Shown in pieces: positions 12,900 to 53,694 of a stretch of 64,000 bases of DNA (its first letter is position 1; each line of letters begins with the position of its first letter). Source of the DNA: Buchnera aphidicola (Cinara curtihirsuta). GTDB lineage: Bacteria; Pseudomonadota; Gammaproteobacteria; Enterobacterales; Enterobacteriaceae. Under the pieces are notes generated by a model that made no database searches, was not told the DNA's origin, and saw nothing but the letters and a program-made list of their open reading frames with translations. The stretch spans positions 248,001 through 312,000 of the forward strand of contig NZ_LR217700.1 in the NCBI RefSeq assembly GCF_900698895.1, in the 5' to 3' direction. The translations under genes and the position numbers were made by a program.

Positions 12900-13546
12900 A
12901 TGATCAAATCATTTTATAAGATACTTAAAAATATTATACTTATAATACTAATTATTTTTACTATAAATAATAGTATTTTTTCATGTAAGAAAATAATAAA
13001 TAAAAAAATTTTTTTAAAACCCATTCAAATAATTAAAAAAAATAAAAAAAAAAAAAAAATAATTATTCATCTTGGTTTACAAATTATAAAAATTATAAAA
13101 TCGGAGATAATATTACTGTTTTATTTAATGAAAAGAATAATATTAATTATAGTATAAAAAAATATATAATTAAACAATCATATTATATATATAATTTTAA
13201 ATTATTTATTGTTAAAAAAATAAATACATACATTGGAAATATAGAAAAAATAAAGAAATTAATTAATAAAAAAAATTTTTATATAAAAAAAAATATAAAT
13301 TTAAAATTATCAGTTAGAGTGGTAGCAATATTAAAAAATAAATATTTAAAAATTTTAGGTGAAAAAAAATTTTTTAATAATAATCATATAGAAAAAATAA
13401 AATTCTATGGAATAATTAATCCTAAAAAAATCAATTTAAACAATTCTATAAACTCTTCTAAAATTTCTAATTTTAAAATTGAGTATTCAAATCAAAATTT
13501 CAAAAAAAACATTTTTTTTTACTTAAAAAAATATTTTATTTTTTAA
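12900..13546 (+). CDS. flgH: Flagellar L-ring protein FlgH, frameshifted at an A16 tract
   Basis: Two frames together give a FlgH of about 215 residues (232 in E. coli). Frame 1 (12900-13157) has a lipoprotein signal ending SIFSC, followed by a Lys-rich stretch. After the A16 tract at 13044-13059 the homology continues one frame over (NYKIGDNITVLFNE matches RNIGDTLTIVLQE, and LGEKKFFNN...IKFYGIINPKKI matches VGEKQIAIN...IRFSGVVNPRTI) to a stop at 13546. One extra base would join the frames. FlgH forms the outer-membrane L ring of the basal body. It is either a pseudogene or rescued by slippage at the tract. Confidence 0.8.
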
Positions 13547-13554
13547 AATTAAAA

Positions 13555-13582
13555 ATATATACTATTTAATTATAGTATATAT
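13555..13582. repeat. 11-bp inverted repeat between flgH and flgI
   Basis: ATATATACTAT (13555-13565) is followed by a 6-nt spacer and ATAGTATATAT (13572-13582). It sits in the 60 bp gap after flgH. Similar TATACTA/TAGTATA hairpins lie in other gaps of the window. Confidence 0.4.
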
Positions 13583-13606
13583 ATTACTATATATAATTAA
13601 AATTAT

Positions 13607-14404
13607 ATGAAAATTATATCAAAATTTAAATATATAATTATTATTCTGTATATTTTATTAAATAACAAATCTTTAATATCTGCAAAAAAAATTCATAATC
13701 TAATAAATATTGTAGGAATTCAAGATACTCAACTTATCGGATACGGTCTAGTAGTTGGTTTAAATGGTACAGGTGATACAACCGCTCAAATTCCCTTTAC
13801 ATATCAATCATTAAATAATATGTTAACAAAATTTGGAATTTATACTAATAATAGTCAAAATATACAAACAAAAAACACAGCCGCCGTTATAGTAACCGCT
13901 ACTATATCACCATTAAATTATATCGGACAAAAGATTGATATTACAGTTTCTTCTATTGGAAATGCTAGCAATTTAAATGGAGGAACATTAATAATGACTC
14001 CATTAATGGGTGTAGATAAAAAAACTTATGCTATTGCTCAAGGTAATATATCAACAAATTTTCAAGAAAAAAAAATATACTTTAAAAAATATAATAAAGA
14101 TTTATTAAATAGAAAAAAAATAATTCGCGGAGCAATTATTAAAAAATCTACTTCTAATAAATTTGATAAATATCATCACGGAATTATAATTTTAAAATCT
14201 ATAAGAAATAATTGGTCTTTATTAAAAAAAATATGTAACACTATTAATATGCAATATTATAATATTGCAACTATTATTGATTTTAACACTATACAATTAA
14301 ATATACCAAAAAATAAAATTTTACAAAATAAAATTTTATTTCATATATTTAATATAGATATACCATCTAAAAAAAATATACATAAAAAAAAATATAATAT
14401 ATAA
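13607..14404 (+). CDS. flgI: Flagellar P-ring protein FlgI, C-terminally truncated
   Basis: The protein has 265 residues against about 365 in E. coli. A signal peptide (SLISA|KKIHN) leads into well conserved FlgI sequence: LIGYGLVVGLNGTGD, SLNNMLTKFGI, KNTAAVIVTA, GQKIDITVSSIGNA and GGTLIMTPLMGVD. Conservation fades near residue 240 and the frame then stops. The roughly 100 C-terminal residues are absent, and only 42 bp remain before rluC, so they were deleted rather than frameshifted. FlgI builds the P ring of the basal body in the periplasm. Whether the shortened protein still assembles cannot be judged here. Confidence 0.88.
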   Translation: MKIISKFKYIIIILYILLNNKSLISAKKIHNLINIVGIQDTQLIGYGLVVGLNGTGDTTAQIPFTYQSLNNMLTKFGIYTNNSQNIQTKNTAAVIVTATISPLNYIGQKIDITVSSIGNASNLNGGTLIMTPLMGVDKKTYAIAQGNISTNFQEKKIYFKKYNKDLLNRKKIIRGAIIKKSTSNKFDKYHHGIIILKSIRNNWSLLKKICNTINMQYYNIATIIDFNTIQLNIPKNKILQNKILFHIFNIDIPSKKNIHKKKYNI

Positions 14405-14446
14405 TTATATATATTTATTAATATATTTTATATATAAGAAAACTAT

Positions 14447-15393
14447 ATGAATAATAAAGAATTATTAAAAAAATCAATTATAATACAAAAAAATATGTCA
14501 GGTCAAAGAATTGATAATTTTTTATTTAAACATTTTAAAAAATTACCAAAAAGTATGATATATCGTAGTATAAGAATAGGAAAAATAAAAATAAATAAAA
14601 AAAAAATAAAACCGTTTTATAAACTTAAAATCAATGATTGCGTTACAACACACTCTATTATAATAGATATAAAAAAAAAAAAATTTATTTAAAAAAATCA
14701 ATAATTAATTTATTTTTAAAAAATATATTATTTGAAGATAAATATTTAATCGTTTTTAACAAACCGCATGGATTTGCAGTACACGGAGGTAGCGGGATTA
14801 ATTATGGAGTAATAGAAATATTTAGAGAAATTCGAAAGAAATTGACATTTTTAGAGCTCGTACATCGTATCGATAGAGATACTTCTGGCATACTAATTCT
14901 TGCAAAAAAACGTTCTATTTTAAAAAAAATGCATGAAAATTTACGTAAAAAAAAAATATATAAAGAATATTTAGCATTAACACACGGTTATTGGTCTCAT
15001 AAAAACAAAATAATTTGTTTGCCTTTATCAAAAAGAAAAGATGTTAAAAAAAAAAAAAAAGTGTATGTTCATGAAAATGGAAAACCTTCAAAAACAAAAT
15101 TTAAAGTAAAAAAATATTTTAATAATACTACTTTAATATCAGCTGTACCTATTACCGGAAGAACTCATCAAATTCGAGTACATACTTCACAATTTGGACA
15201 TCCTATTATTTTTGATAAAAAATATGGAAATACAGAACAAGAAAAAAAATATATTTTAAAAAAAAATAATAGATTATTATTACATTCATATAAAATTTCT
15301 TTTATCCATCCAAAAGAAAAAACAAAAATTTGTATAATAGCTCCATTAGATGAAAAATTTAAATATTGCTTAAAATATTTTTCAAAAAAATAA
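14447..15393 (+). CDS. rluC: 23S rRNA pseudouridine synthase RluC, frameshifted at an A13 tract
   Basis: RluC makes pseudouridines 955, 2504 and 2580 in 23S rRNA. Frame 1 (14447-14692) holds the S4 RNA-binding domain (GQRIDNFLFKHFKKLPKSMI). After the A13 tract at 14671-14683 the protein continues in another frame with the catalytic domain (FNKPHGFAVHGGSG, the HRIDRDTSGILILAKK motif with the catalytic Asp, and ITGRTHQIRVHT) to a stop at 15393. One added base at the tract would give a full-length RluC of about 315 residues (319 in E. coli). No other lesion is visible, which argues for slippage rescue over a dead gene. Confidence 0.87.
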
Positions 15394-15419
15394 TTTTTTT
15401 AAAGAAATAAGGAAAAAAA

Positions 15420-15620
15420 ATGGCAGTACAAAAAAGTAAACCAAGTAGATCAAAAAGAGGAATGAGAAGATCTCATGATCTTATATCAGAAAATCAGTTA
15501 TCTATAGATAAAACATCAAAGGAAATACACATTCGTCATCATATAACGCACAGTGGATATTATAAAGGAAAAAAAACATTTTTATTTAATAAAAGATCTG
15601 AAAAAACATTAAATCAATAA
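15420..15620 (+). CDS. rpmF: 50S ribosomal protein L32
   Basis: A 66-residue protein starting [20 protein letters not shown], an almost exact L32 N-terminus. It is followed by [22 protein letters not shown]. coli L32 has 57 residues, so this copy carries about nine extra C-terminal residues, mostly polar or charged. AGGAAA lies just before the ATG. The place upstream of fatty acid synthesis genes is the E. coli arrangement, but plsX and fabH, which normally come between rpmF and fabD, are absent. Confidence 0.97.
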
Positions 15621-15754
15621 TAAAAATTTTATAAATATTAATAATTATATTAAAAATATACTTTTTAAATAAAAAATATTTTTTTTAAAATATTTTTATA
15701 ACTATAAATATTTAAAATCATTAAATTAAAATTATCTATATAATAAAAATATTT

Positions 15755-15787
15755 TTCTATATACTATATAAGTAGTAGTATATAGAA
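15755..15787. repeat. 12-bp inverted repeat upstream of fabD
   Basis: TTCTATATACTA (15755-15766) and TAGTATATAGAA (15776-15787) are exact complements with a 9-nt loop, ending 23 bp before the fabD ATG. In RNA it would sit just upstream of the AAAGGT ribosome binding site. It could end rpmF transcripts or modulate fabD, but there is no T run. Confidence 0.45.
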
Positions 15788-15810
15788 TAAAAAAGGTTAA
15801 GTTATAATTT

Positions 15811-16751
15811 ATGAAAAAATTTTCAGTAATCTTCCCCGGATATGGATTATATAATATAGAATTTTTAAAATCATTTTTAAAAAAATATCATATAGTTCGA
15901 AAAACATTTAAAAAAGCATCTGATATATTAAATTATAATATATATAACAACTTTTTTAAAAAAAAGAATAATTTTATTTTTCATAATAAAAATATATATT
16001 TACTAACATTTATTTCTTCAGTAGCTATATATAGAGTTTTAGAAAAAGAAATAAATATTAAACCAAATATAATATCTGGACATAGTATAGGTCAATATTC
16101 TGCTTTAGTCTGTAATAAAAATATATTATTTGAAGAAGCAATTAATATTATTAAAATACGTAATAAAATTATGTTAGAAGCAGTAAAAAATACTCGAGTT
16201 TTAACATTAGTAGTTATTGGATTAAATTATAATCTTATTAAAAAAACTTGTTTATTACTTTCTACTAAAAAAAAAAAGTATTTATTTCTATTATTAACTC
16301 AAAAAAACAAATAGTTATTACTGGAAATTATTCTGTAGTATATTCTGTCGGTTTAATATTTAAAAAAAAATTTTATGCTAAAGTAATTCGATTACCAATG
16401 TCAATTGCATCTCACTGCTTATTAATGAAAAATTATAAAGAAAAATTTTCTTATTATTTAAAAAAAATAAAAATATTTAAAGGAAAATATCCTATAATTA
16501 GTAATCATAATGCAAATATTATTTTATCTAAAAAAGAAATATATTCTTCATTAATAAAACAAATATATAAAACAGTACAATGGAATAAAAGTATAAAAAA
16601 AATTATCTCTATGGGAGTAAATATTTTTATCGAAGTAGGACTTGGTAATATATTAACTAATTTAAATAAAGAAAATAAAAATATATTTTCTTACTCAACA
16701 AATGAGTATAAAAAATTATTATTAGTTATGGATATAATAAAAAAATTATGA
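15811..16751 (+). CDS. fabD: Malonyl-CoA:ACP transacylase FabD, frameshifted at an A11 tract
   Basis: FabD loads malonyl groups on acyl carrier protein for fatty acid synthesis. Frame 1 (15811-16314) holds the nucleophile motif SGHSIGQYSALVC and the carboxylate-binding Arg (KIRNKIMLEA). After the A11 tract at 16267-16277 homology continues in a second frame (SIINSKKQIVITGNYS, the catalytic His in IASHCLLMK, and YKTVQWNKSI) to the stop at 16751. One added base restores about 313 residues (309 in E. coli). The oxyanion-hole motif FPGQGSQ reads FPGYGLY, so the usual Gln is Tyr. The stop overlaps the fabG start (ATGA), suggesting coupling. Confidence 0.87.
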
Positions 16752-17485
16752 AAAAAAAAATAGCTTTAGTAACCGGAGCCAATAAAGGAATCGGGAAAAA
16801 AATTTCAACAGAATTGATATCTTTAAATATATTTGTGATTGGTACTTCTACTACAAAAAAAGGCGTAGAAATAATTAAAAAAAATTTACAAAATAATGGA
16901 ACTGGAATATTAATAAACTTTTTAAAAATTTCAACAATTAAAATAAAAATTAAAAAATTAATTAATAAGTTTAAAAAAATTGATATATTTATACACAATT
17001 CAGGAATTATAAATGATAAATTATTAATTACTATGAAAAATTCAGAATGGAATAATGTAATTAATATTAATTTGTCTTCTATATTTTATATAACAAAAAT
17101 AATTTTAATACCAATGATCAAACAAAAATATGGAAGAATAATTATAATTAGTTCACTGGTTAGTCACACGGGACAAATAGGACAAACAAATTATGCAGCA
17201 TCAAAAGCTGGTTTAATTGGTTTCTCAAAATCTTTGGCTTTGGAAGTAGCATCAAAAGGAGTTACAGTTAACTTGGTTTCTCCAGGATATATAATTACAG
17301 ATATGACAAAAAAAATTTTATCTTTTAATAAAAAAAAAATATTAAAAAAAATACCAATGGGGGTTTTTGGAAAAACAAAAGATATTGCTTATGTTGTATC
17401 TTTTTTATCATCAGAAAAATCTTCATATATTACAGGTCAAAATATTCATGTAAATGGAGGAATGTATGTTGACCTTGCTACATAA
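16748..17485 (+). CDS. fabG: 3-oxoacyl-ACP reductase FabG
   Basis: An NADPH-dependent short-chain dehydrogenase that reduces 3-oxoacyl-ACP in each elongation cycle. It has 245 residues against 244 in E. coli. The cofactor motif TGANKGIGKKI is at 9-19, and the catalytic Ser (near 136), Tyr149 and Lys153 are present in the ISSLVSH and NYAASKAG segments. The usual NNAG motif reads HNSG at 83-86, a mild change. It overlaps fabD by 4 nt and is followed by acpP 52 bp later. Confidence 0.96.
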   Translation: MKKKIALVTGANKGIGKKISTELISLNIFVIGTSTTKKGVEIIKKNLQNNGTGILINFLKISTIKIKIKKLINKFKKIDIFIHNSGIINDKLLITMKNSEWNNVININLSSIFYITKIILIPMIKQKYGRIIIISSLVSHTGQIGQTNYAASKAGLIGFSKSLALEVASKGVTVNLVSPGYIITDMTKKILSFNKKKILKKIPMGVFGKTKDIAYVVSFLSSEKSSYITGQNIHVNGGMYVDLAT

Positions 17486-17537
17486 AAAATATTTATAAAA
17501 AATTTTTACTATTCAAAATAATCATCGAGATATACAC

Positions 17538-17777
17538 ATGAATAATATTATTGAACGTATAAAGAAAATAATTAAAAAACAATTTCAAATAAAAGAAAAA
17601 AATATTTCATTAGATAATGAATTAAAAAAAGATTTTAATATGGATTCATTAGATTTTATAGAATTAATCATGTTACTGGAAGAAGAATTTAAAGTTGAAT
17701 TATTTGACATAGAAATAGAAAAAATTAAAACAATAAAAGATATTAAAAAGTACATCATAAAAAAAATCAAAAAATAA
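17538..17777 (+). CDS. acpP: Acyl carrier protein
   Basis: A 79-residue acidic helical protein with the DSL phosphopantetheine site: Ser37 in [11 protein letters not shown], where E. coli has GADSLDTVEL. The carrier shuttles growing acyl chains between the Fab enzymes. The helix-II region ([13 protein letters not shown]) is conserved. In E. coli acpP is followed by fabF, pabC, mltG and tmk before holB; here holB comes directly, 17 bp after the stop. Confidence 0.96.
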
Positions 17778-17794
17778 AAATAGAAAATTTGCCC

Positions 17795-18790
17795 ATGAAA
17801 AATTACCCCTGGTTAGTTAGCGAATATAAAAAAATAGTAAAAAAATATTATAATAATAAACTACATCCTATAATTTTAATTCAATCACGTATTGGTTTTG
17901 GAGTTTCACGATTAATTTTTAATATTTCTCAATGGATTCTGTGTTCAAATAAAAAAAAAGAAAAAAGCTGTGAAAGATGTTTATCTTGTATCTTAATAAA
18001 TCAAAAAAAACATCCTGATTTTTATAATTCTAATTATGATTCAAAAAATAAATATATCGGAATAAATATTATTCGTACTATTATAGATGACATTTATCAA
18101 ACCTCACAGCAAGGAGGAGCTAAGATTATTTGGTTTTCATCTATTAATAGACTTACTATAGAAGCACAAAACTCTTTATTAAAAATTTTAGAAGAACCCC
18201 CAGAAAATACTATATTTTTTTTAAATACAAATAATATAAAAACAGTTCTTAGTACTATTACAAGCAGATCCACTATTTACTATATAAATTTACCTAGAGA
18301 AAAAGACACCTTAAATTGGCTAAAAGAAAAAAACAAAATTTATACTTCTATTCAACTATTAACAGCTTTACGAATAAATAATAATGCTCCTATAATCACA
18401 CACAAATTCTTAAATAATAAAAAATTAAATGAAAGAAACATATTTATGATAGCAATATATAAATACATGATTAATAAAAAATATATTAATTTATTAAAAA
18501 TAATATTAAATTATAGAAAAAAAAAAATAATTATATGGGTTTGTTATCTAATTCTAGATGTTATAAAATATATTATATGTAAAAAATATAAAGTTCAAAA
18601 TTTAGATCAAATTAAATTAATAAAAAAAATAGCAAAAAAAAATAATTTTAACATATTAATCCAACATTTAAGATCTTGGATTCAATGTAAAAAAATATTA
18701 TCTAGTTCATATCATATTGATAAAAAATTAATATTTACAGAACAAATTCTATTGTTAACTAATGATATATTAAATAATACTAATATATAA
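17795..18790 (+). CDS. holB: DNA polymerase III subunit delta'
   Basis: A clamp-loader subunit that works with DnaX and HolA to load the sliding clamp. With the ATG at 17795 the protein begins MKNYPWLVSEY, matching MRWYPWL of E. coli; an earlier in-frame TTG at 17789 is less likely. It has 331 residues against 334. The zinc cysteines are at 50, 59, 62 and 65, GGAKIIWFSSINRLT and NSLLKILEEPPENT follow, and the degenerate P-loop lacks a normal Walker A, as is usual for delta'. tmk, its usual upstream neighbour, is missing. Confidence 0.93.
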   Translation: MKNYPWLVSEYKKIVKKYYNNKLHPIILIQSRIGFGVSRLIFNISQWILCSNKKKEKSCERCLSCILINQKKHPDFYNSNYDSKNKYIGINIIRTIIDDIYQTSQQGGAKIIWFSSINRLTIEAQNSLLKILEEPPENTIFFLNTNNIKTVLSTITSRSTIYYINLPREKDTLNWLKEKNKIYTSIQLLTALRINNNAPIITHKFLNNKKLNERNIFMIAIYKYMINKKYINLLKIILNYRKKKIIIWVCYLILDVIKYIICKKYKVQNLDQIKLIKKIAKKNNFNILIQHLRSWIQCKKILSSSYHIDKKLIFTEQILLLTNDILNNTNI

Positions 18791-18817
18791 TTTAAATAAT
18801 ATATAAGGATAAAAAAA

Positions 18818-19609
18818 ATGTTTTTAATTGATACTCACTGTCACATTAATAATATAGATAATAGTAAAAAAAACTGCAATATAGATAATATTTTAAAAAA
18901 AGCTTATAAAAAAAATGTCAGATTATTTTTATCCGTTTCAACTTCTATTCAAGATTTTTATCATATGTTTCAACATACTTTTTTTTATAAAAATATTTTT
19001 TTATCTTGTGGTTTACATCCAAATTATAATCATCATAAAAACGATTTAAAAAATATAGAATTAATATCTAAATATAATAAAGTGATTGCTATTGGTGAAA
19101 CTGGGTTAGATTTTTATAGATCAAAAAAAAAAAAAAGACAGATTGAACTTTTTCAACATCATATTTATATATCTAAAAAAACTAAAAAACCTATTATTAT
19201 TCATAATAGAAATGCAGATAAAGAAATAATAAGTATTTTAAATACTCATAAAAACCAACTATATTCAGGAATAATACATTCATTTACAGGAACAATAGAT
19301 TTTGCAAGACAATTATTAGATATTGGATTTTATATTTCATTTTCTGGAATAATTACATTTAAAAAATCACATAATTTAAGATCCATTTTAAAATTTATAC
19401 CTTTAAACAGATTATTTATAGAAACAGATTCGCCCTATTTATCTCCTGAACCATATAGAGGCAAAATAAACCAACCATATTTATTATGGTATACTGCTAA
19501 ATTAATTCAAAAATGTTTAAAAATAGATTTTTTAACATTTTCTAAAATATTAAAAAAAAATTTCTATACATTATTTAAAATAAAAAATAATATATACATA
19601 AAAACATAA
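18818..19609 (+). CDS. ycfH: TatD-family metal-dependent hydrolase YcfH
   Basis: A TIM-barrel nuclease-like metalloenzyme of 263 residues (265 in E. coli YcfH). Metal ligands are visible: DTHCH (His7, His9), GETGLDFYR, HSFTGT, and the ETDSPYLSPEPYRGK segment near the end. The physiological substrate in this group is uncertain; TatD proteins are reported to have DNase or phosphodiesterase activity. The place directly after holB is the conserved E. coli order. AAGGAT precedes the ATG. Confidence 0.92.
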   Translation: MFLIDTHCHINNIDNSKKNCNIDNILKKAYKKNVRLFLSVSTSIQDFYHMFQHTFFYKNIFLSCGLHPNYNHHKNDLKNIELISKYNKVIAIGETGLDFYRSKKKKRQIELFQHHIYISKKTKKPIIIHNRNADKEIISILNTHKNQLYSGIIHSFTGTIDFARQLLDIGFYISFSGIITFKKSHNLRSILKFIPLNRLFIETDSPYLSPEPYRGKINQPYLLWYTAKLIQKCLKIDFLTFSKILKKNFYTLFKIKNNIYIKT

Positions 19610-19726
19610 TAAAAAAAAACATTAAAAAATGATTTTTATATACTTTTAACAAATAAAAAAAAATTTTATTTACATAAATTTATATTTTACTATTTATAGT
19701 TTTTTATTATAAAATATAAAAAATAT

Positions 19727-21124
19727 TTAAAAATCTGCATGTCCTATAGTTCTAGGAAATGGAATTGATTCTCGAATATTTTTAATTCCAGTAATAAATA
19801 ATATTAATCGCTCTAAACCTAAACCAAAACCAGAATGAGGAACTGTACCATACTTTCTTAAATCTTTATACCAATTATAATTTTCTTTATTTAATCCCAT
19901 CTCTATCATTCTATTCTCTAAATAATCTATTCTATCTTCTCTCTCTGAACCACCTATAATTTCACCAACTTGAGGAATTAATATATCAAATGCAGATACT
20001 GTTTTTTTATCTTTATTCATGCGCATATAAAAAGCTTTTAATAATTTCGGGTAATTTCTTATAATTACCGGAGATTTAAAATAATTATTTACTAAATATT
20101 TTTCATGATGAGAAGATAAATCTTCACCCCATAAGATTTTCTCGTTAATAATATGATTATTTTTTAATAAAATATTAATAGCTTCATTATATTCAATATT
20201 AACAAAATTAATATTTAAAAAATTATTTAAACGAAAAATAATATTTTTATCAACTTTTTTTTGCAAAAATAATAATTCAGAAACACAGTTATCTAAAACA
20301 AAGTTAATTGAATTTTTTAATAATTTTTCTGCAAAAATAGATATATCATTAATATCTGAAAAAGCTTTTTCTACTTCTAACATCCAAAATTCTGTTAAAT
20401 GTTTTTTAGTATTAGAATTTTCCGCTCTAAAAGTAGGTCCTAAAGAGTAAACTTTAGATAAAGCGCAAGCATAGGCTTCTAAAGTTAATTGACCAGAGAC
20501 AGTTAAAAATACTTTTTTTCCAAAAAAATAATTTTCTTTATTAGTGTTCTTTTTAATATTAACTTGATTATTAATATCTAACATAGATACTTGAAACATT
20601 GATCCAGAACCCTCTGTATCAATACTAGTAATAATAGGAGTTGATACCCATAAATAACCATTTTTAACTAAAAATTCATTTAAAGATTGAAAAACTGCAT
20701 TTCTAATTCTTGCAATAACGCCAATTAAACTAGTGCGAGGACGCAAATGACAAAAATATCTAATATATTCAATTGTATGTTTTTTAGCTGACATAGGATA
20801 TAAATCAGGACGATCTATCCACCCTATTATTTCAACATGATTAGCTTTAATTTCATAAGTTTGTAAATCACTAGGAGATAAAATTAAATTACCAGATACT
20901 ATTACTGAACAACCGATAGTTAATTTAATAATCTCGGTAGAATAATTAAATAAAGATTTTTTAGCAATTACTTGAATAGATCGTGTAGATGAACCATCAT
21001 ATATAGTTAAAAAAGATATTCCTATTTTTGATATTCTTTTACTTCTTACCCATCCACCAATAGTAATTTGTTTATTTAAATAATTATTTTTTGTATAAAT
21101 TTCTAATATAGAAATTTTTTTCAT
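19727..21124 (-). CDS. asnS: Asparaginyl-tRNA synthetase
   Basis: A class IIb aminoacyl-tRNA synthetase that charges tRNA-Asn. It has 465 residues against 466 in E. coli. The N-terminal OB-fold anticodon-binding domain (about 1-110, with VRSKRISKIGISFLTIYDGS) precedes the catalytic core. Motif 2 is FRAENSNTKKHLTEFWMLEV and motif 3 is GFGLGLERLILFITG, followed by IRESIPFPRT. It is convergent with ycfH. Confidence 0.97.
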   Translation of the reverse strand: MKKISILEIYTKNNYLNKQITIGGWVRSKRISKIGISFLTIYDGSSTRSIQVIAKKSLFNYSTEIIKLTIGCSVIVSGNLILSPSDLQTYEIKANHVEIIGWIDRPDLYPMSAKKHTIEYIRYFCHLRPRTSLIGVIARIRNAVFQSLNEFLVKNGYLWVSTPIITSIDTEGSGSMFQVSMLDINNQVNIKKNTNKENYFFGKKVFLTVSGQLTLEAYACALSKVYSLGPTFRAENSNTKKHLTEFWMLEVEKAFSDINDISIFAEKLLKNSINFVLDNCVSELLFLQKKVDKNIIFRLNNFLNINFVNIEYNEAINILLKNNHIINEKILWGEDLSSHHEKYLVNNYFKSPVIIRNYPKLLKAFYMRMNKDKKTVSAFDILIPQVGEIIGGSEREDRIDYLENRMIEMGLNKENYNWYKDLRKYGTVPHSGFGLGLERLILFITGIKNIRESIPFPRTIGHADF

Positions 21125-21346
21125 AACTATTTCCTAATATATAAAATATAAATATTTAAAATTTAATATTATAAAAAAAAAACAACTTATATTCTTGAAA
21201 ATAAATTTATCTAAATAAAAAGTTTTGTTTATATAAAAACATAAATTCCTTATATATAAACATATCTAAAAATAAATTTACTAATAAGTAATTTCTATTA
21301 CTGTATATAAACACAATTAATTTTTTTTATTAAAAAAATATCATAT

Positions 21347-43174: not shown

Positions 43175-44188
<1,014 letters not shown>

Positions 44189-44389: not shown

Positions 44390-44398
44390 ATAAAAAAA

Positions 44399-44791
44399 TT
44401 ATCTTTTTGAAAACTGCGGTTTTTTTCTGGATTTACGAAAACCACATTTTTTACGTTCTACTTGTCTTGAATCACGAGTAACAAATCCTTCTTTTCTTAA
44501 AATATCTCTTAATGTACTATCATATTTTATCAATGCACGAGTAATTCCTTGACGGATTGCTCCAGCTTGACCTGAAACTCCACCACCTTTAACAGTAATA
44601 TAAAAATTAAATTTATTTAACATATTAACTATGTCTAAAGGTTGCTGAACAACCATGCATGATGTTTCTCTTCCAAAATATTTTTTTAAAGAACGTTTGT
44701 TAATAACAATTTTACCTTCTCCTTTACATAAAAAAACACGAGCTGAAGAACTTTTACGACGACCTGTACCATAATTTATATATTTTGACAT
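44399..44791 (-). CDS. rpsI: 30S ribosomal protein S9
   Basis: 130 residues, as in E. coli. It begins [21 protein letters not shown], keeps [21 protein letters not shown], and ends with the basic KKPQFSKR tail whose last residues touch P-site tRNA. Downstream of rplM in the usual two-gene operon. Confidence 0.98.
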
Positions 44792-44821
44792 AAATATATC
44801 TCTCTCCTATTACTTAAATAA

Positions 44822-45250
44822 TTAAATATCCAAAAAAATGGGTTTTTGAGAAATTAAATTATGTTCATTAAATGAAAATACTTTTAATTTTTTAAAAACA
44901 TCTCTACCTAAAGAACCTTTAGGTAACATTCCTTTTATTGCTTTTTCAATTATACGTTTAGGATGATGTAACAACATATATTGCAAAGTATATTTTTTTA
45001 TACCTCCAACATATCCTGTATGATGATAATAAATCTTATTAATTTCTTTTTTTCCTGTAACAATTATTTTTGATGCATTTATAACTATGATATAATCACC
45101 AGTATCTATGTGGGGGGTGTATTCTGGTTTATGTTTTCCTCGTAAATATATAGATATTTTACTTGCAAGACGACCTAATATTTTATTAGTTCCATCAACA
45201 TAATACCAAGATTGTATAATTTTATTTGAATTAGCTGAAAAACTTTTCAT
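44822..45250 (-). CDS. rplM: 50S ribosomal protein L13
   Basis: 142 residues, as in E. coli. [37 protein letters not shown], and [15 protein letters not shown] are all typical. It leads the rplM-rpsI operon on minus. Confidence 0.98.
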
Positions 45251-45395
45251 AATAAATTACCTATATAGTTATTAAAATTAAAATATATTTATTTATTTTT
45301 TCTAAAAAAAAATAATTTTATTTATATATATAAAACATATTTATAAAAATTTATACATAATAAAAATATAAAAATAATTAAATTGGAAAATAAAA

Positions 45396-46538
45396 ATGAA
45401 TAAAAAAACAAAATTATATTTATTAAGAAATAAAATAAATTTTATTGATAACAAAATAATAAAACTATTAAAATGTAGAGAATCTTTATCAATAGATATT
45501 TTAAAAAATAAAATATATAATAAATTTAATATTCATGATAAAAATAGAGAAATAGAATTATTTAAAAACTTAAATAAAATAAGTAAAGAAAATGAAATTA
45601 ATCCTATATTTATAGAAAAAATGTTCAAAATGATTGTAGAAAATTCTATTTTAATTCAAAAAAAATGGAAAAATAAAATATTAAATTCTAAAAAAGAATT
45701 TCGTTGTGCATATTTAGGACCCACAGGTTCATATTCATCTACCGTTTTTAATATTATAGCTAAAAAAAATAAAAATATTTTACTAGAAGATGAACATATT
45801 AATTTTCAATCTATAATAGATTCTTTTAATAAAAAAAAATGTCAATTAGCATTGTTTCCTATTGAAAATAGAATATCAGGAATTATTCCTGAAGTATATG
45901 ATATATTGAGAAAACAAGAAGAAGTAAATATAGTTAAAGAAATAAATATATCTATTCATCATCATTTATTTACTTTAAAGAATTGTTTTTTCTATGATAT
46001 AAAACGTGTATATAGTCATATACAACCCTTTATACAATGTAGTCTTTTTTTAAAAAGATTTCCAGAATGGAAAAAATACTATTTTAATAGTACATCTGCA
46101 GCTATGAATCAAATTTCTATAGAAAACAAAAAAACATCTGCTGTATTAGGAAATTCAATAGGAGGTTCTTATTATAATTTACAAAAAATAGCTACAAATA
46201 TATCTAATATAAAAAACAATATAACTCGATTTATACTAATTTCAAACAAATCAAAAAAAATATCTAATATAATTCCATCTAAAATAACTATATTAATAAC
46301 ATTAAAAAATAATAAAATTAATAAACATAAAATATTAAAAATATTAAAAGAAAAAAATATTTTAATTATAAAAATAATTTTAGCAAGTAAAGAAGAAAAA
46401 ACATATCTACTAGAAATAAAATCTAATATAAACTCAGACATTACAAAAGATGTATTATACCATATAAAAAAATATACTAAATATATAAAAATACTAGGTT
46501 GTTATCCTATCTCAAATAAAATAATAAAAATATATTAA
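45396..46538 (+). CDS. pheA: Bifunctional chorismate mutase / prephenate dehydratase
   Basis: Makes phenylpyruvate from chorismate, the committed route to phenylalanine. It has 380 residues against 386. The mutase domain (1-95) keeps the active-site Arg11, Arg28 region, Lys39 region, Arg51 region and the Gln near 88. The dehydratase domain (about 104-285) keeps CAYLGPTGSYS and the catalytic Thr in NITRFIL. The C-terminal ACT regulatory domain is present by length, and ends LGCYP, but the GALV and ESRP motifs that bind phenylalanine in E. coli read unlike them (NKHK and ILAS). Feedback inhibition is probably weakened. Confidence 0.96.
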   Translation: MNKKTKLYLLRNKINFIDNKIIKLLKCRESLSIDILKNKIYNKFNIHDKNREIELFKNLNKISKENEINPIFIEKMFKMIVENSILIQKKWKNKILNSKKEFRCAYLGPTGSYSSTVFNIIAKKNKNILLEDEHINFQSIIDSFNKKKCQLALFPIENRISGIIPEVYDILRKQEEVNIVKEINISIHHHLFTLKNCFFYDIKRVYSHIQPFIQCSLFLKRFPEWKKYYFNSTSAAMNQISIENKKTSAVLGNSIGGSYYNLQKIATNISNIKNNITRFILISNKSKKISNIIPSKITILITLKNNKINKHKILKILKEKNILIIKIILASKEEKTYLLEIKSNINSDITKDVLYHIKKYTKYIKILGCYPISNKIIKIY

Positions 46539-46628
46539 TTAATTTAAAAAATTTATTTAATATAAATAAAATTATTATTATAATAATAATAATTTATATT
46601 ACTAATATAAGGATATTTATCCAACGTT

Positions 46629-47975
46629 ATGTTTAATAACTTAACAAAAAAAATAACAGATATTTTTGACAAAATTTCATATAAAAGTCAACTAAAAGAA
46701 AAAAAAATAAAAAAAACGCTTAAGAAAATAAAAATAGCATTAATAGATGCTGATGTATCATTAGAAGTGATAAAAATATTTTTAAAAAATATAAAAAAAA
46801 AAATATCAGAAATTTATATAAATAAAAATTTTAGTCCTAGTCAGAATTTAATACAAATTGTATTAAAAGAATTAATTAAAATAATGGGAAATAATTGTTA
46901 TCTATTTAATTTTTTATTAAATAGTTTAACTATTTGTACTGTTATAGGTCAACCAGGTTCTGGTAAAACAACTAGTATAGCTAAACTAGCTTATTTATTA
47001 TCTAAGCAATATAAAAAAAAAGTACTTGTAGTGTCTATTGATATATATAGACCAGCTGCAATTTTACAATTAAAGAGATTAATAAAACAAACAAAAGCTA
47101 ATTTTTTTCCATCTAATCTTGATCAGAAAATAAATGAAATTATAAAATTGGCAATAAAAGCAGCAAAAAAAGAACAATATGATGTATTATTAATTGATAC
47201 AGCAGGAAGAATGCATACGGATCAAAAAAAAATTAATGAACTAAAAAAAATACAAAATTATATTAAACCTCATGAAACATTATTTGTTGTTGATTCAATG
47301 ACTGGTCAAGATTCTATTTATTCAATTAATAAATTTAATAAACATTTTAAATTATCTGGAATTATTTTAACGAAACTAGATAGTGATACAAGAGGAGGAA
47401 TTGCTTTATCTATTCGAATATTAACAAAAAAACCAATAAAATATATTGGTATCGGAGAAAAAATTTATGATCTACAAATTTTTCATCCCGAAAGAATTGC
47501 TAAAAGAATTTTAGGAATGGGTGATATATTATCTTTAATAGATGAAATTCAAAATAAAATAAAACACAAAGAATTAAAATTACTTAAAAAAACCACTAAA
47601 AAAGGAGATACATTTAATTTAAATGATTTCTTAATACAAATTAAACAAATAAATAAAATAGGAGGAATTAATTCATTAATAAATAAATTACCAATTAATA
47701 TATTTTCTTCAAATTCAATTTTAGAAAAAATTGATGAAAAATCTCTTATAAAAATTAAAGCAATGATTAATTCAATGACAGAAAAAGAAAGAAAATTTCC
47801 ATCTATTATAAAATATTCAAGAAAAAAAAGAATATCACAAGGATCTGGAAACACAATACAAGAAATAAATATTTATTTAAAAAAATTCGATAATATTAAA
47901 CGTATTATGAAAAAAATTAAAAATAGCAAAAAAAATAAAATATTTGAAAAAATTAAAAATTATCTGATAAAATAA
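46629..47975 (+). CDS. ffh: Signal recognition particle protein Ffh
   Basis: The SRP GTPase that targets membrane proteins with 4.5S RNA and FtsY. It has 448 residues against 453. N domain 1-95, then the G domain with GQPGSGKTT at 107-115, DTAGRM and TKLD. The M domain (about 300-448) aligns with E. coli including INSMTEKERKFP and SRKKRISQGSG for RNA binding. But the methionine bristles that line the signal-peptide groove are almost all gone: about four Met remain where E. coli has about twenty, mostly replaced by Ile, Asn and Lys. A TAAGGAT precedes the ATG. Confidence 0.97.
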   Translation: MFNNLTKKITDIFDKISYKSQLKEKKIKKTLKKIKIALIDADVSLEVIKIFLKNIKKKISEIYINKNFSPSQNLIQIVLKELIKIMGNNCYLFNFLLNSLTICTVIGQPGSGKTTSIAKLAYLLSKQYKKKVLVVSIDIYRPAAILQLKRLIKQTKANFFPSNLDQKINEIIKLAIKAAKKEQYDVLLIDTAGRMHTDQKKINELKKIQNYIKPHETLFVVDSMTGQDSIYSINKFNKHFKLSGIILTKLDSDTRGGIALSIRILTKKPIKYIGIGEKIYDLQIFHPERIAKRILGMGDILSLIDEIQNKIKHKELKLLKKTTKKGDTFNLNDFLIQIKQINKIGGINSLINKLPINIFSSNSILEKIDEKSLIKIKAMINSMTEKERKFPSIIKYSRKKRISQGSGNTIQEINIYLKKFDNIKRIMKKIKNSKKNKIFEKIKNYLIK

Positions 47976-48038
47976 TATATATGATCAATATTTTATATAA
48001 AAAAATAAAATAAATAAAAAAAATAAAAAGGATTTCAA

Positions 48039-48296
48039 ATGATTAAAATAAGACTTGCTCGATATGGAGTAAAAAAAAAACCATTTTATAAAATAATAGT
48101 TGCAGATATTAGATCTGCTCGTAATGGAAAATTTATTGAAAATATTGGATATTTTAATCCTTTTGCTGGAAAAAATGAAGAAAAAGTATTTTTTTATACT
48201 AAAAAAGTTCAATATTGGTTACAAAAAGGAGCAAAAAAATCAGATAGAATAAAAAAATTATTAAATCAATACAACAAAAAAAACCATTCTTATTAA
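48039..48296 (+). CDS. rpsP: 30S ribosomal protein S16
   Basis: 85 residues (82 in E. coli), beginning MIKIRLARYGVKKKPFYKIIVAD and keeping IENIGYFNPFAG. It leads the conserved rpsP-rimM-trmD-rplS operon. AAAAGGAT lies 7 bp before the ATG. Confidence 0.98.
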   Translation: MIKIRLARYGVKKKPFYKIIVADIRSARNGKFIENIGYFNPFAGKNEEKVFFYTKKVQYWLQKGAKKSDRIKKLLNQYNKKNHSY

Positions 48297-48326
48297 TATT
48301 ACTAATATTATTATTCTTAATTAATT

Positions 48327-48830
48327 ATGATTATTATTGGAAAAATAGGAAAACCATATGGAATTTTAGGATGGATACATTTAATTTCATTTACAGAAAT
48401 CAAAAAAAATATTTTTTATTATTTTCCTTGGAGATTAAGTAAAAATAATTTAATTATTAATAAAAATGATATAATTATATATAAAAAATATATAAATAAT
48501 TTCATTATAAAGTTAAAAAAAATTGATAATAGAAATCAAGCTTTTAACATATCTCAACAAAAAATTTTAATTAAAAATACACAATTACCTAAATTAAAAA
48601 ATAAAGAATATTATTGGCATGATATTTTATTTTGTAATGTTTTTAATACAAAAGGAAAAAAAATAGGACTAGTAATTAGTATACTAGATAATAAAATCTA
48701 TAATATATTATTAGTTTTATGTAAAAAAAAAAATAAAACTATATATATTCCGTTTATAAAAAAAAAAATTATTAAAAAAATAAATATTAAAAAAAAAATT
48801 ATTATTGTTGAATGGTTTAATTATAAATAA
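48327..48830 (+). CDS. rimM: 16S rRNA processing factor RimM
   Basis: Assists maturation of the 30S head and binds S19. It has 167 residues against 182. The N-terminal domain starts MIIIGKIGKPYGILGWIHL. A middle AFNISQQKILIKNTQLPK and the PRC-barrel segment with EYYWHDILFCNVFN and IPFIKKKIIKKI follow. Diverged but clear, and in operon position 30 bp after rpsP. Confidence 0.9.
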   Translation: MIIIGKIGKPYGILGWIHLISFTEIKKNIFYYFPWRLSKNNLIINKNDIIIYKKYINNFIIKLKKIDNRNQAFNISQQKILIKNTQLPKLKNKEYYWHDILFCNVFNTKGKKIGLVISILDNKIYNILLVLCKKKNKTIYIPFIKKKIIKKINIKKKIIIVEWFNYK

Positions 48831-48860
48831 ATATATTTTTTATAAAAAAAGATAAACAAA

Positions 48861-49547
48861 ATGATACAATTTAGTATTATAACAATTTTTCCAAATATGT
48901 TTAATAATATCTTTAAATATGGGGTAATAAAAAAAGCAATTCAAAAAAAAATAATTAATATCAAAATATTAAATCTACGAAATTTCAGTATAAATAAAAG
49001 AAAAAAAGTGGATGATAAAATATACGGAGGAGGTTCAGGTATGTTAATTATGTTTTTACCCCTATTTAGAGCTGTTATAGAAGCAAAAAAAAAACAAAAA
49101 AAGAAAAGTATAGTGATATATTTATCACCACAAGGAAAAATATTAAATCATAATAATATAAAATATTTTATTAAAAAAAAAAATTTAATATTTATTTGTG
49201 GACGTTACAAAGGAATTGATGAAAGATTTATAAAAACACAAGTAGATGAAGAATGGTCAATTGGTGACTATATATTAACTGGAGGAGAATTACCAGCTAT
49301 GATATTTATAGATGCTATTACACGATCTATACCAGGGGTGTTAAATAACCAAAATTCTTTAAGAGAAGAGTCATTTAATAATAATTTATTAGATTGTCCA
49401 AATTATACCAGACCAAAAAATATAAATAATAATATAGTACCTTCTGTTTTATTATCGGGAAATCATAAAAAAATAAAAAAATGGAGATTAAAATATGCAT
49501 TAAAAAATACTTTATTGAAAAGACCTGATTTATTAAATAAAAAATAA
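48861..49547 (+). CDS. trmD: tRNA (guanine-37 N1)-methyltransferase TrmD
   Basis: Makes m1G37, which prevents +1 frameshifting at proline codons. It has 228 residues against 255; the C-terminal helical domain is shortened. The trefoil knot keeps YGGGSGMLI, SPQGKIL, CGRYKGIDERFI and the YILTGGELPAMIFIDAITR loop. In a genome with many homopolymers, keeping this modification enzyme is reasonable. It follows rimM by 30 bp. Confidence 0.97.
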   Translation: MIQFSIITIFPNMFNNIFKYGVIKKAIQKKIINIKILNLRNFSINKRKKVDDKIYGGGSGMLIMFLPLFRAVIEAKKKQKKKSIVIYLSPQGKILNHNNIKYFIKKKNLIFICGRYKGIDERFIKTQVDEEWSIGDYILTGGELPAMIFIDAITRSIPGVLNNQNSLREESFNNNLLDCPNYTRPKNINNNIVPSVLLSGNHKKIKKWRLKYALKNTLLKRPDLLNKK

Positions 49548-49632
49548 AAAATAATTATTAAAATAATAAAAAACATAAAAATTATAAAATAATAATATAT
49601 ATTTTAGAATTAACTATATGAGAAATAAAAAT

Positions 49633-49980
49633 ATGAGTAATATTATCCAAATAATTGAAAATGAATATAAAAAAAAAAATATTCCTAATTTTAAAACAGG
49701 AGATTCTCTTATAGTAAAAATATGGATATTAGAAGGAAATAAAAAACGTATACAATCTTTTGAAGGAATAGTAATTTCCAAAAGAAACAGAAATCTTAAT
49801 TCATCATTTACTATACGTAAAATATCAAACGGAGAAGGGGTAGAGAGAACTTTTCTAACTCATTCACCGAATATAAATGAAATAGAAATTATAAAAAATG
49901 GATTGGTTAGAAAAGCTAAACTATATTATTTGCGTAAATGTAAAGGAAAATCTGCACGCATAAAAGAAAATTCAAAATAA
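49633..49980 (+). CDS. rplS: 50S ribosomal protein L19
   Basis: 115 residues, exactly as in E. coli, if started at the ATG at 49633 ([12 protein letters not shown]). An in-frame ATG at 49618 adds five residues; the GAGA between them is a suitable ribosome binding site for the later start. [17 protein letters not shown] and RKAKLYYLR are typical. Last gene of the rpsP operon. Confidence 0.96.
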
Positions 49981-50063
49981 ATAATACAAAAATATATATA
50001 CTTATATTATATAAATCATAAAAAATTTAAATAATTAATAATTTAATTGATTTATATTAATTA

Positions 50064-50093
50064 TGCAGTCATAATACTATTAAATTGACTGCA
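50064..50093. terminator. Hairpin between rplS and tldD
   Basis: TGCAGTCA (50064-50071) and TGACTGCA (50086-50093) are exact complements with a 14-nt loop. They sit 84 bp after the rplS stop and 19 bp from the tldD stop, between convergent genes. No long T run; a weak terminator in either direction. Confidence 0.5.
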
Positions 50094-50111
50094 CAAAATA
50101 TATTAATATTT

Positions 50112-51548
50112 TTAAGAAACACCACCTATTGTTAATTTATTTATTTTAATAGTAGGCTGACCAACACCAACTGATATATTTTGACCACTTTTACTGCAAG
50201 TACCTAAACCACTATCTATACTTAAATTATCTCCTATCATAGATATTGATTGCATTACTTGTATACCTGATCCAATTAAAGTAGCTTCTTTTATAGGATA
50301 AAGAATTTTACCATTTTTAATAATATATGCTTCTGAAGTAGAAAAAACAAAATTTCCTGAAGTAATATCTACTTCCCCTCCACTGAAATTTACTGCATAT
50401 ATACCATATTCTACACTTTCAATAATATTTATATGTTTATCTGTACCAGATAATAAATATGTATTTGTCATACGAGGTAAAGGAAGATATGCATATGATT
50501 CTCTTCTTCCATTACCGGTACTTTTACTATCCATAATATGTGCATTCAATTTGTCTTGTAAAAAAGATTTTAAAATTCCTTTTTCAACTAATATATTATA
50601 TTGACCAGGTACTCCTTCATCATCAATATTTATTGAACCTCTACAGCCTATTAGGGTAGAATCATCAACAATGGTACACAAAGAAGAAGCAACTTGTTTT
50701 CCGATTTTTTTATAAAAAATAGATGTTTTCTTTCGAATAAAATCTCCTTCTAATCCATGACCAACCGCTTCATGAAATAAAATTCCAGGCCAACCAGGAC
50801 CTAATACAACAGGAAAATATCCAGAAGGAGAAGATTTTGCAGACAAAGTAACAAGAGCAATACGGACAGCTTCTTTTGTCCAAAAATCTATTAATGTTTC
50901 ATTATTATTTTTTTTTTTAAAAAAATCACTAAATTTTAGTCTACCTCCTCCTCCACTATAACCTTTCTCACGATTATTATTTTGTTCAACAGTAACTCGG
51001 ATGGAAATATTAACTAAAGGACGAATATCATGAGATATAAAATTATTGTCTGTTGAACCAATCACAATTTCTTCATATTCACACGTTAATATTGAATAAA
51101 CGTCAATAACACGAAAATCTTGTTTTCTTGCCAATGAATCAATAGATCTTAATAAATAAATCTTTTTTTTAATGGAAAAATTTTTTATTGAATTACATTG
51201 AGTATATAAGTAATTCATATTTAAATATGATTCTTTTTTAAAAATATTTCTATCCATTGTAGACAAAAATGAACAAACTTTATTAGTAGCATTAACTAAG
51301 TTATTTAATGTAATTGAATTAGTGTAAGAAAAACTAGAAGAAATATTTTTTACCACTCTAATTCCTACTCCTTCATCAAAAAAATAAGTACCTTTTTTAA
51401 TAATTTTGTTTTCTAAAACCCATACTTCTTTTTCCTTTAATTGAAAATAAATATCACCAAAATCAACTTTTTTATCTAACATATCATTTAATAATAAATA
51501 AATATTATTTTTAGTAATATTATATTTTTTTAAAAAAATATCTATCAT
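50112..51548 (-). CDS. tldD: Metalloprotease TldD
   Basis: TldD pairs with TldE (PmbA) as a heterodimeric zinc protease acting on unfolded peptides and some modified peptides. It has 478 residues against 481. The zinc motif FHEAVGHGLEGDF keeps HExxxH, and the C-terminal ICKSG-like region reads TCSKSGQNISVGVGQPTIKI. The partner gene is not in this window. It runs convergent to rplS. Confidence 0.95.
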   Translation of the reverse strand: MIDIFLKKYNITKNNIYLLLNDMLDKKVDFGDIYFQLKEKEVWVLENKIIKKGTYFFDEGVGIRVVKNISSSFSYTNSITLNNLVNATNKVCSFLSTMDRNIFKKESYLNMNYLYTQCNSIKNFSIKKKIYLLRSIDSLARKQDFRVIDVYSILTCEYEEIVIGSTDNNFISHDIRPLVNISIRVTVEQNNNREKGYSGGGGRLKFSDFFKKKNNNETLIDFWTKEAVRIALVTLSAKSSPSGYFPVVLGPGWPGILFHEAVGHGLEGDFIRKKTSIFYKKIGKQVASSLCTIVDDSTLIGCRGSINIDDEGVPGQYNILVEKGILKSFLQDKLNAHIMDSKSTGNGRRESYAYLPLPRMTNTYLLSGTDKHINIIESVEYGIYAVNFSGGEVDITSGNFVFSTSEAYIIKNGKILYPIKEATLIGSGIQVMQSISMIGDNLSIDSGLGTCSKSGQNISVGVGQPTIKINKLTIGGVS

Positions 51549-51798
51549 AATTCAGTATCTCTTAAAATAACCATAAATTTAAATATATTATTTAAAATAA
51601 AAAATATTTATCTTATAATAAAAAATTAAAAATAAAAATTTTTAAAAATATTTTTAAAAATAATATACATTACTATAAAATTAATTTTAATTAAATAATT
51701 ACTATAAAAACTATATAATTATTTTATAAAATGTTAATATGTACAATAAATAATAAATATTATTCTTAATTAGAATATATATAAAAATAGGAAATATT

Positions 51799-52251
51799 AT
51801 GAAAAATAAATTTAAAATAATGATAATTAATGGACCAAATTTAAATTTATTAGGTACTAGAGAAACAAAAATATATGGAAAAAAAACATTATCTGAAATA
51901 ATTAATAAAACAAAAAAAATAGCAAATAAACTAAAAGTAAAATTATATGATTTTCAATCTAATGCAGAACATGAAATAGTAGAAAAAATACATGAATGCA
52001 AAAGCATAAAAATAAAATTTATTTTAATTAACCCAGGAGCGTTTGCTCATACTAGTATATCAATAAGAGATGCTCTTCTAGCTATAGAAATTCCATTTTT
52101 CGAAATTCATATTTCTAATATATTTTCTAGAGAAAATTTTCGTTCACACTCCTGGATATCTGATATATCAAATGGTATTATATCTGGATTTGGTTCTGAT
52201 GGATATATTTGGGCTCTTCATACAGCCGTAAATCTTTTATTAGAAAAATAA
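51799..52251 (+). CDS. aroQ: 3-dehydroquinate dehydratase, type II
   Basis: Third step of the shikimate pathway, dehydrating 3-dehydroquinate. It has 150 residues, typical for the type II dodecameric enzyme, unlike the type I AroD of E. coli. NGPNLNLLGTRETKIYG carries the catalytic Tyr (REPxIYG in most family members), and NPGAFAHTSISIRDAL and FRSHSWISD hold the active-site His and Arg. Together with pheA it serves aromatic amino acid supply. Its stop is only 4 bp from the convergent fis stop. Confidence 0.96.
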   Translation: MKNKFKIMIINGPNLNLLGTRETKIYGKKTLSEIINKTKKIANKLKVKLYDFQSNAEHEIVEKIHECKSIKIKFILINPGAFAHTSISIRDALLAIEIPFFEIHISNIFSRENFRSHSWISDISNGIISGFGSDGYIWALHTAVNLLLEK

Positions 52252-52255
52252 TATA

Positions 52256-52567
52256 CTACTTATTAAATCGTTTACTATTTTGATAATAAATATTTAATTT
52301 TCTTCTTAATGTTCCTCTATTAATACCCAAAATTAAAGCTGCTTTTGTTTGATTACCTCTAGTATATTGCATTACTATATCAAATAGAGGTTTTTCAATT
52401 TCAGATAAAAACATTGAATATAAATTATTTTCTTTTTTTTCAACTACTATTAAAAAGTAATTTTTTAAAGCAATTTTAATATAATGAATTAAAGGAGCAT
52501 AAAAAACTTTTTTATTAACAGTATTAGATACTATAAATTTACTAGAATTTTTTTTATTATTTAACAT
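52256..52567 (-). CDS. fis: DNA-binding protein Fis
   Basis: A nucleoid protein and regulator of 103 residues (98 in E. coli). The C-terminal helix-turn-helix is strongly conserved (QYTRGNQTKAALILGINRGT), as is the dimer helix PLIHYIKIALKNYF. It is one of very few transcription factors in the window. In E. coli dusB precedes fis in an operon; here upstream is only spacer before rluD. Confidence 0.96.
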   Translation of the reverse strand: MLNNKKNSSKFIVSNTVNKKVFYAPLIHYIKIALKNYFLIVVEKKENNLYSMFLSEIEKPLFDIVMQYTRGNQTKAALILGINRGTLRRKLNIYYQNSKRFNK

Positions 52568-52729
52568 ATATTTACTTAATTGATTTTACATTATCAGTTC
52601 TTAATATAAAAATATATAGAATTTTAATATTTTTAACAAAAAAAATTAATTTAATAATTATTAATTATATGGTATATAAAAAATATATTTTGTATAATTA
52701 AATTACATAAAAATAATATTTTATAAAAA

Positions 52730-53694
52730 CTATTTCATGTCTTCCAAATATAAAAAATTAATTAATTGTATCATATCTATTGGAGGAGCAACTAACCAGA
52801 TTTTTTTTTTATTAAAAATAGGATGAATAAAACTTAACATTCTAGAGTGCAGTGCAGGTCTAGAAAATTTTAAAAAAAATTTATGCATTTCTTTAGAAAT
52901 ACCTAAAAAATTTAATTTTATACCCCTATAATATATTTTATCGCCGAATACAGGATGTAAAATAGAAGATAAATGTACTCTAATTTGATGCATTCTACCT
53001 GTTTTTAATTGTATACGAAGATATGTATAATTCCTAAAAATTGTCATAACCTTATAATAAGTTAAAGCTGACTTTCCGCCAATACCTACAGTCATCATAG
53101 TTCTACGATAAATATTTCTTTTAATAGGATAGTCAATAAAGCCATCTTGTTCAATTCTACCGATAACAATAACATCATATTCTTTTATTACTTCTCTTTT
53201 TTTAAATAAAGAAATTAGATAATTATATGAAAATATTGTTTTTGCTACAACTAATAAACCAGAAGTATTTCGATCTAATCGATGCACAATACCAGCTCTA
53301 GGTAAAGTTAAATTATTTTTATAATGATAAATTAAAGCATTAAATAATGTACCTGAAGTATTTCCATAACCTAAATGTATAACAAAATTAAATGGTTTAT
53401 TAATAATTAATAATTCGGAATCTTCAAAAATAATATTTAAAAATATATTTTCTTTTTTTATTTTAATAAAATTAAATTCTTTTTTTATATTAATAGAAAT
53501 TTTGTCTTGAAAAAAAATTTTTTTTTTGGTTTAGTAATAATATTATTATTTACTGCAACATATCCTAATAAAATCCATTTTTTTATACAAGAACGAGAAA
53601 CAGAAGAAATTAATTCTACTAAAATTTTATCCAGTCTATAAGATTGTAATTTTAAATTTGAGATTACAAAATTGAATTTTTCTTTTTTATTCAT
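52730..53694 (-). CDS. rluD: 23S rRNA pseudouridine synthase RluD, frameshifted at an A10T8 tract
   Basis: RluD makes pseudouridines 1911, 1915 and 1917 in helix 69. Frame 1 (53694-53485) holds the S4 domain (YRLDKILVELISSVSRSCI). After the minus-strand A10-T8 run (53510-53527) homology continues in another frame: FEDSELLIINKPFNFVIHLG, then VPRAGIVHRLDRNTSG-type catalytic motif (read PRAGIVHRLDRNTSG) and TGRMHQIRVHL, ending at 52730. One added base joins them into about 320 residues (326 in E. coli). An ATG at 53287 lies inside the catalytic motif, so it is not a real start. Confidence 0.87.

Follow-up and report, generated by a model that had tools for sequence, protein, structure and literature searches.

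A 64,000-nucleotide stretch of the chromosome of Buchnera aphidicola from the aphid Cinara curtihirsuta, hereafter the window (bases 248001-312000 of 433,209; 21% G+C), contains four genes, flgH, rluC, fabD and rluD, that are each divided into two open halves at a long run of A or T. Together with further genes of this chromosome and of related genomes, they make up a group of retained frameshifts that is of a known type and strongly biased to one sign, a pattern that is real and not noise. From the observed splits, their sharing among species, their sign and the selection acting on their halves, we infer with a probability of roughly 60% that these are working genes lying one frame off at a long A/T run, whose full-length proteins would be produced when RNA polymerase inserts one base by slippage, net -1 splits being those mainly kept. 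Throughout, net -1 denotes a downstream half lying one frame back, modulo 3, which may originate from the loss of one base or the gain of two. The source genome is designated G000 and its relatives G001-G015, giving 16 genomes of the genus. The features of the four window genes, with open reading frame (ORF) matches to relatives, are as follows.

12900..13059, plus strand: flgH upstream half; the ORF continues to a stop at 13157; matches G006 FlgH residues 1-49 at 67% identity, with a weak E-value of 0.012
13044..13059, plus strand: flgH A16 tract, read from the sequence
13046..13546, plus strand: flgH downstream half, open, net -1 relative to the upstream half; G006 FlgH residues 66-225, 76%
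14447..14692, plus strand: rluC upstream half; residues 1-70 of the intact G009 RluC, 74% identity
14671..14683, plus strand: rluC A13 tract, at a gene split net -1 in 11/16 genomes of the genus
14671..15393, plus strand: rluC downstream half, in a frame open from 14638; residues 89-317 of the intact G009 RluC, 70% identity
15811..16314, plus strand: fabD upstream half, from three-frame translation and the scan
16267..16277, plus strand: fabD A11 tract; A9 and in frame in G007 and G005
16269..16751, plus strand: fabD downstream half; G007 FabD residues 164-320, 93%
53485..53694, minus strand: rluD upstream half, from three-frame translation and comparison within the genus
53510..53527, minus strand: rluD tract, A10T8 on the coding strand and A8T10 on the plus strand; of the 14 split genomes, 13 have A10 and one has A9
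52730..53530, minus strand: rluD downstream half; codons 1-75 contain no ATG, GTG or TTG

Three-frame translation bears out what the initial annotation had described: each gene is split once at its tract into one upstream and one downstream open half, the downstream half is in the -1 frame every time, and no second lesion is visible in any of the four. Slippage-rescued frameshifts in symbionts are expected to show just this form: one frame offset, located at an A or T run of at least 9 bases, in a gene that is otherwise open. Among protein families, the G006 and G007 relatives match FlgH and FabD best, with scores under the curated cut-offs, and the intact relatives of the other two genes match RluC and RluD best, under the equivalog cut-offs and over the RluA subfamily cut-off. 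The breaks in rluC (window 14447-15393), in rluD (52730-53694) and in rluB of G009 (chromosome 202930) lie at a similar site, residues 50-90, which would correspond to the linker joining the S4 domain to the catalytic domain.

The polarity extends beyond the window. Five more genes of the source chromosome, flhB, lipB, tusC, dut and dapF, are split net -1 at A/T runs of at least 9, and all nine G000 splits at such tracts, flgH included, share this sign (two-sided sign test, 0.004). Split genes were identified by cross-comparing the ORF translations of seven chromosomes or parts of chromosomes in all frames; pooled counts cover five chromosomes and 200 kilobases of G003, with G010 tallied separately, and each row is one gene in one genome, rows not being independent of each other. 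In these six genomes, tracts of at least 9 gave 39 net -1 rows versus 4 net +1, compared with 21 versus 18 where the tract measured 6-8 or was absent (Fisher, 0.0003). Removal of rows judged to be artefacts, three net -1 and two net +1, left 36 versus 2 at long tracts. Counted per gene, with artefacts out and flgH left out, 16 genes are net -1 and 2 are net +1 (fabZ in G006 and ruvX in G005), giving a p value of 0.0007 if both signs are equally likely, 0.035 under two-to-one odds and 0.14 under three-to-one odds. When artificial lesions were placed in intact genes, the scan recovered 78/80 losses and 79/80 gains. Because both signs are recovered, and because the rows of G010 run the opposite way (0 net -1 and 6 net +1 at long tracts; 14 and 7 at tracts of 6-8), the scan carries no bias towards net -1.

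The rejected rows have individual explanations. The net +1 row at G000 334093 is an artefact of its query, recC of G007, which is split and carries a tail in another frame; in G000, recC is one open frame. The net +1 row at G009 387286 consists of MutY and YggX, two separate families with no lesion; the pair forms a single open frame in G000 (chromosome 403309-404598), in G007, in G005 and, by length, in G006, and two frames with long A runs between them in G009. Three net -1 rows (G007 62629, G006 324809 and G005 440967) were set aside because their ORFs are short, antisense or unsupported. Split-gene rows are more numerous in G010 than in the other genomes; they are of mixed sign, mostly at runs of 6-8 and exclusively net +1 at long runs, and G010 may hold sequencing errors.

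Seven genes, rluD, rluC, dapF, tusC, lipB, fabD and flhB, were followed across the genus. As they were selected for being split net -1 in G000, the weight rests on the tally outside that genome; for the last five, the signs come from frame arithmetic by hand on match coordinates. A net -1 split was found in rluD in 14/16 genomes (intact in G010 and G013), in rluC in 11/16, with runs of A11 to A15 (intact in G004, G009, G010, G013 and G014), in dapF in 10/16 (the G008 and G013 calls being ambiguous), in tusC in 7/16, in lipB in 6/16, in flhB in 3/16 (G000, G006 and G007) and in fabD in 2/16 (G000 and G012). Altogether, 53 of the 55 resolved splits are net -1 and 2 are net +1. This sharing goes beyond what the initial annotation had observed: rluD and rluC carry frameshifts kept across species, flgH does not, and fabD does so between G000 and G012 only. 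In a family search, rluD is a single open frame, by best match, in most of the 119 genomes listed; outside the genus, G032 shows upstream and downstream rluD matches whose coordinates are again net -1.

The number of gains was estimated on a tree of 456 RluC and RluD columns, taken without the 25 kept columns nearest each gene's tract; the tree is built from two of the studied genes and one fork is poorly supported. With an intact root, parsimony assigns 2, 3, 2, 4, 5, 2 and 1 changes to the seven genes, 19 in all, with at least five for lipB. We rejected 19 as a count of independent gains, since it counts changes; net -1 gains number 13 where restorations are preferred and 19 where none are allowed. 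Set against two net +1 gains, these gains have p values of 0.004 to 0.0001 at even odds. The rluC, rluD and dapF splits are present in all nine members of the clade of G000 (support 93/91). By their number, these nine genomes may be the nine Erwinia-associated Cinara species of PMC6908640, a clade whose age is cited in passages of that paper as about 20-30 million years. If the two clades are the same, the three splits are probably as old as the Erwinia-associated Cinara clade.

The two halves of the split genes are constrained even though they are mutually out of frame, as most values of the ratio of nonsynonymous to synonymous substitution rates (dN/dS) show. This ratio was obtained for rluC, rluD, tusC, dapF, flhB and lipB, the first five of which are split in both G000 and G007. 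Between these two genomes, the downstream halves gave 0.138 for rluC, 0.159 for rluD, 0.112 for dapF, 0.173 for tusC and 0.219 for flhB, along with 0.183 for lipB, which is intact in G007; the reference median over 274 genes is 0.145. Upstream halves, which span 31-137 codons and are noisy, gave 0.12 for rluC and 0.22 for rluD. Higher values appeared in wider pairs: 0.87 over 46 codons of tusC (G000 versus G006) and, between G000 and G005, 0.63 over 48 codons of upstream rluD and 0.57-0.66 for flhB, which is intact in G005. Purifying selection on both halves, as expected of slippage-rescued frameshifts, is thus found for the six measured genes.

The common polarity had been attributed by the initial annotation either to a one-base deletion bias in replication or to selection for tracts at which slipped transcripts restore the frame. 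Selection for frame-restoring slippage fits best, and the deletion bias fits less well. If, at long tracts, replication dropped single bases more often than it added them, the polarity would be mutational and the genes might still be rescued. Several sites are indeed exact one-base losses relative to an in-frame relative: rluC (A14 in G004 and G009), lipB (A13 to A12), tusC (T11 to T10) and dut (T11 to T10). In a comparison of G000 with G007 that used G006 as the outgroup, noncoding tracts with ancestral lengths of 5-8 bases nevertheless show 13 one-base losses, 15 one-base gains and 2 two-base gains, with 10 further changed tracts ambiguous; a more stringent, pairwise method yielded counts of 6, 3 and 3, and the two G003-G005 trios, kept apart, gave one loss and one gain, and one gain. 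The net -1 class thus makes up 15/30 of the noncoding changes, versus 13 to 19 net -1 gains with two net +1 among the genes (Fisher, 0.023 to 0.003). For fabD, the A11 of G000 compares with an in-frame A9 in G007 and G005, a change of +2, or of +3 followed by -1, and reaching the net -1 class by the +2 route means that deletion bias alone is insufficient for the polarity. What recurs is the frame class, not a single direction of mutation. Long tracts may differ from short ones, a deletion bias limited to tracts of at least 9 may exist, and the gains drop to 13 with restorations; on balance, a mutational origin of the polarity is unlikely, though it retains some weight. Sameness of tract length was dropped as evidence, since noncoding tracts of at least 9 keep their length between G000 and G007 in 14/32 cases, and those of at least 10 in 6/6.

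Distinctly less probable is a -1 frameshift by the ribosome at the A or U run, which would make the full protein from an mRNA identical to the DNA. Such a mechanism needs the identical polarity, and any A or U run of 10 offers slippery heptamers whatever its phase, as at dnaX-type sites. Against it, no unusual RNA structure of the kind that serves as a dnaX-type downstream stimulator was found in the 60 nucleotides past the four window tracts (z of -0.17, -0.54, -1.14 and +1.45). That the genes are young pseudogenes whose decay is yet to come appears very unlikely. Passages of PMC3164680 describe homopolymer frameshifts as a usual form of gene inactivation in Buchnera, and the restricted distribution of the fabD split (2/16 genomes) and of the dut split (G000 only, among the chromosomes compared) would suit this explanation. 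However, neither relaxed selection nor further lesions were found, the four window genes carrying no extra lesion and rluC and rluD having ordinary dN/dS, and the rluC, rluD and dapF splits are common to the whole clade of G000. A truly decaying gene of the same genome, that for transaldolase (chromosome 65191-66330), carries stops in every frame, with intact-length ORFs in G007, G005, G009 and G010.

Two further explanations are extremely improbable. An assembly or library artefact, in which stutter in the polymerase chain reaction (PCR) undercalls long tracts by one base, draws on passages of PMC6908640 that describe PCR-amplified Illumina libraries for nine Cinara Buchnera genomes, G000 presumably among them. 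Yet the 460 conserved ORFs of G000 contain 218 in-frame tracts (A10, 101; A11, 61; A12, 15; A13, 16; A14, 8; A15, 4; A16, 2; T10, 11), with five longer ones besides. A systematic undercall would break most of these, and with only nine genes split this argues against error. Moreover, rluD is affected in most genomes of the genus while genes with equal tracts are spared, and the long-tract rows of G010 are all net +1. Assembly error, which the initial annotation had named as the outcome that would overturn it, is largely removed by the splits common to species. We take G010 to be a 454 genome. Gene fission, with the halves made and working separately, has in its favour that rluC and rluD break between what we take to be the S4 and catalytic domains, but family models place the breaks of lipB, dapF, tusC and fabD inside single enzymes. 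No downstream start of its own, kept across genomes, was found. In G000, G007 and G015 (3/14 split genomes), the first 75 codons of the rluD downstream half lack any ATG, GTG or TTG, as do those of the rluC downstream half in G001 (1/11; the other split genomes have at least one canonical start), which makes separate translation unlikely there.

In the favoured reading, rescue by transcriptional slippage, RNA polymerase rather than the ribosome would restore the frame. Slipping on a long A/T run, it would tend to add one base, so that part of the mRNA would be in frame. Net -1 splits, with one base lost or two gained, would be rescuable and could persist, whereas net +1 splits would be rescued less often and would be lost or decay. 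In pea aphid Buchnera RNA, 151/157 insertions lie in homopolymer runs, all of these in A or T, as against 16/57 deletions, and the insertion frequency of transcripts rises with run length, according to passages of PMC5574713. Under an insertion bias at long runs, net -1 splits would be rescued better than net +1 splits. There is support, though no proof, for a rule by which the slippage bias sets the polarity. More tentatively, and at somewhat less than even odds, insertion-biased slippage might act as a one-way filter, with genes shuttling between the in-frame and net -1 states at the same long tracts, net +1 states being rarely kept, and the error spectrum of RNA polymerase setting which mutations are neutral.

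Several points weigh against this reading. A -1 ribosomal slip yields the same polarity. Among the 199 noncoding tracts mapped, no ancestral tract of at least 9 could be polarised, and under a two-to-one loss bias a count of 19/21 gains would be unusual (p 0.014) and one of 13/15 would not (p 0.08); with a three-to-one bias neither is unusual. Net +1 splits do occur: fabZ in G006, ruvX in G005 and the six G010 rows, flhB in G010 and, with a weak upstream match, in G012, and flgH in G007, the nearest relative of G000, where the A-run differs in length. Because its sign is opposite in G007, flgH is no shared net -1 site. For pea aphid Buchnera, passages of PMC5574713 report no frame-restoring transcription error; the mean rates per base given there are 1.30 insertions and 1.75 deletions per 100,000. 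For E. coli RNA polymerase on a test gene, overall insertions roughly equal deletions, and only active runs show insertions in three-fold excess (PMC6260861).

Among other genes of the relatives, dnaA is split net -1 in G005 (A21, chromosome 6345) and G006 (A13, chromosome 6811), and polA is split net -1 in G006 (A19) and G007 (A11).

Known slippage-dependent genes include dnaX of Thermus and mxiE of Shigella. The split genes would resemble these in that a slip on an A/T run yields a product from another frame; there, slippage yields a further useful product or serves regulation, whereas here the short product has no known use. Slippage on runs of 9 A or T, including Shigella cases, is described in passages of PMC5009743. 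In Buchnera and Blochmannia, poly(A) frameshifts rescued by transcriptional slippage were reported by Tamas et al. (2008; as cited in passages of PMC5009743, PMC3164680 and PMC3017870), with 12-50% of transcripts reported corrected (PMC5009743). Judged through those citing passages, the present cases share with theirs the obligate insect symbiont, the single frameshift at a long A run and the otherwise intact gene, and differ in that one site is common to a large number of species and the offset takes almost always the same sign across the many gains. Ancient frameshifts in homopolymers, kept by selection, were described by Wernegreen, Kauppinen and Degnan (2010; as cited in passages of PMC3017870). 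The title and citing passages of that work suggest the same sharing between species and lack of decay; in contrast, the present analysis concerns Buchnera, places repeated gains on a tree of 16 genomes and tests the polarity against that of noncoding tracts. Slippage rescue and frameshifts kept across species are thus already published, as passages of PMC5009743, PMC3017870, PMC4389277 and PMC3164680 indicate. None of the titles and abstract openings considered refers to these genes, or to a rule of polarity, in the Buchnera of Cinara, and the main text of PMC6908640 makes no mention of frameshift, slippage, rluC, rluD or dapF. Poly(A) frameshift rescue is already known, and the one-way rule looks less explored.

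The reading offered here predicts that the sign of retained homopolymer frameshifts follows the sign of transcription slippage. If it is true, many annotated pseudogenes in reduced genomes would be live genes, among them, in this symbiont, dapF (lysine supply), lipB (lipoate transfer), fabD (fatty-acid synthesis) and rluC and rluD (ribosome modification), and the error bias of transcription would steer genome evolution.

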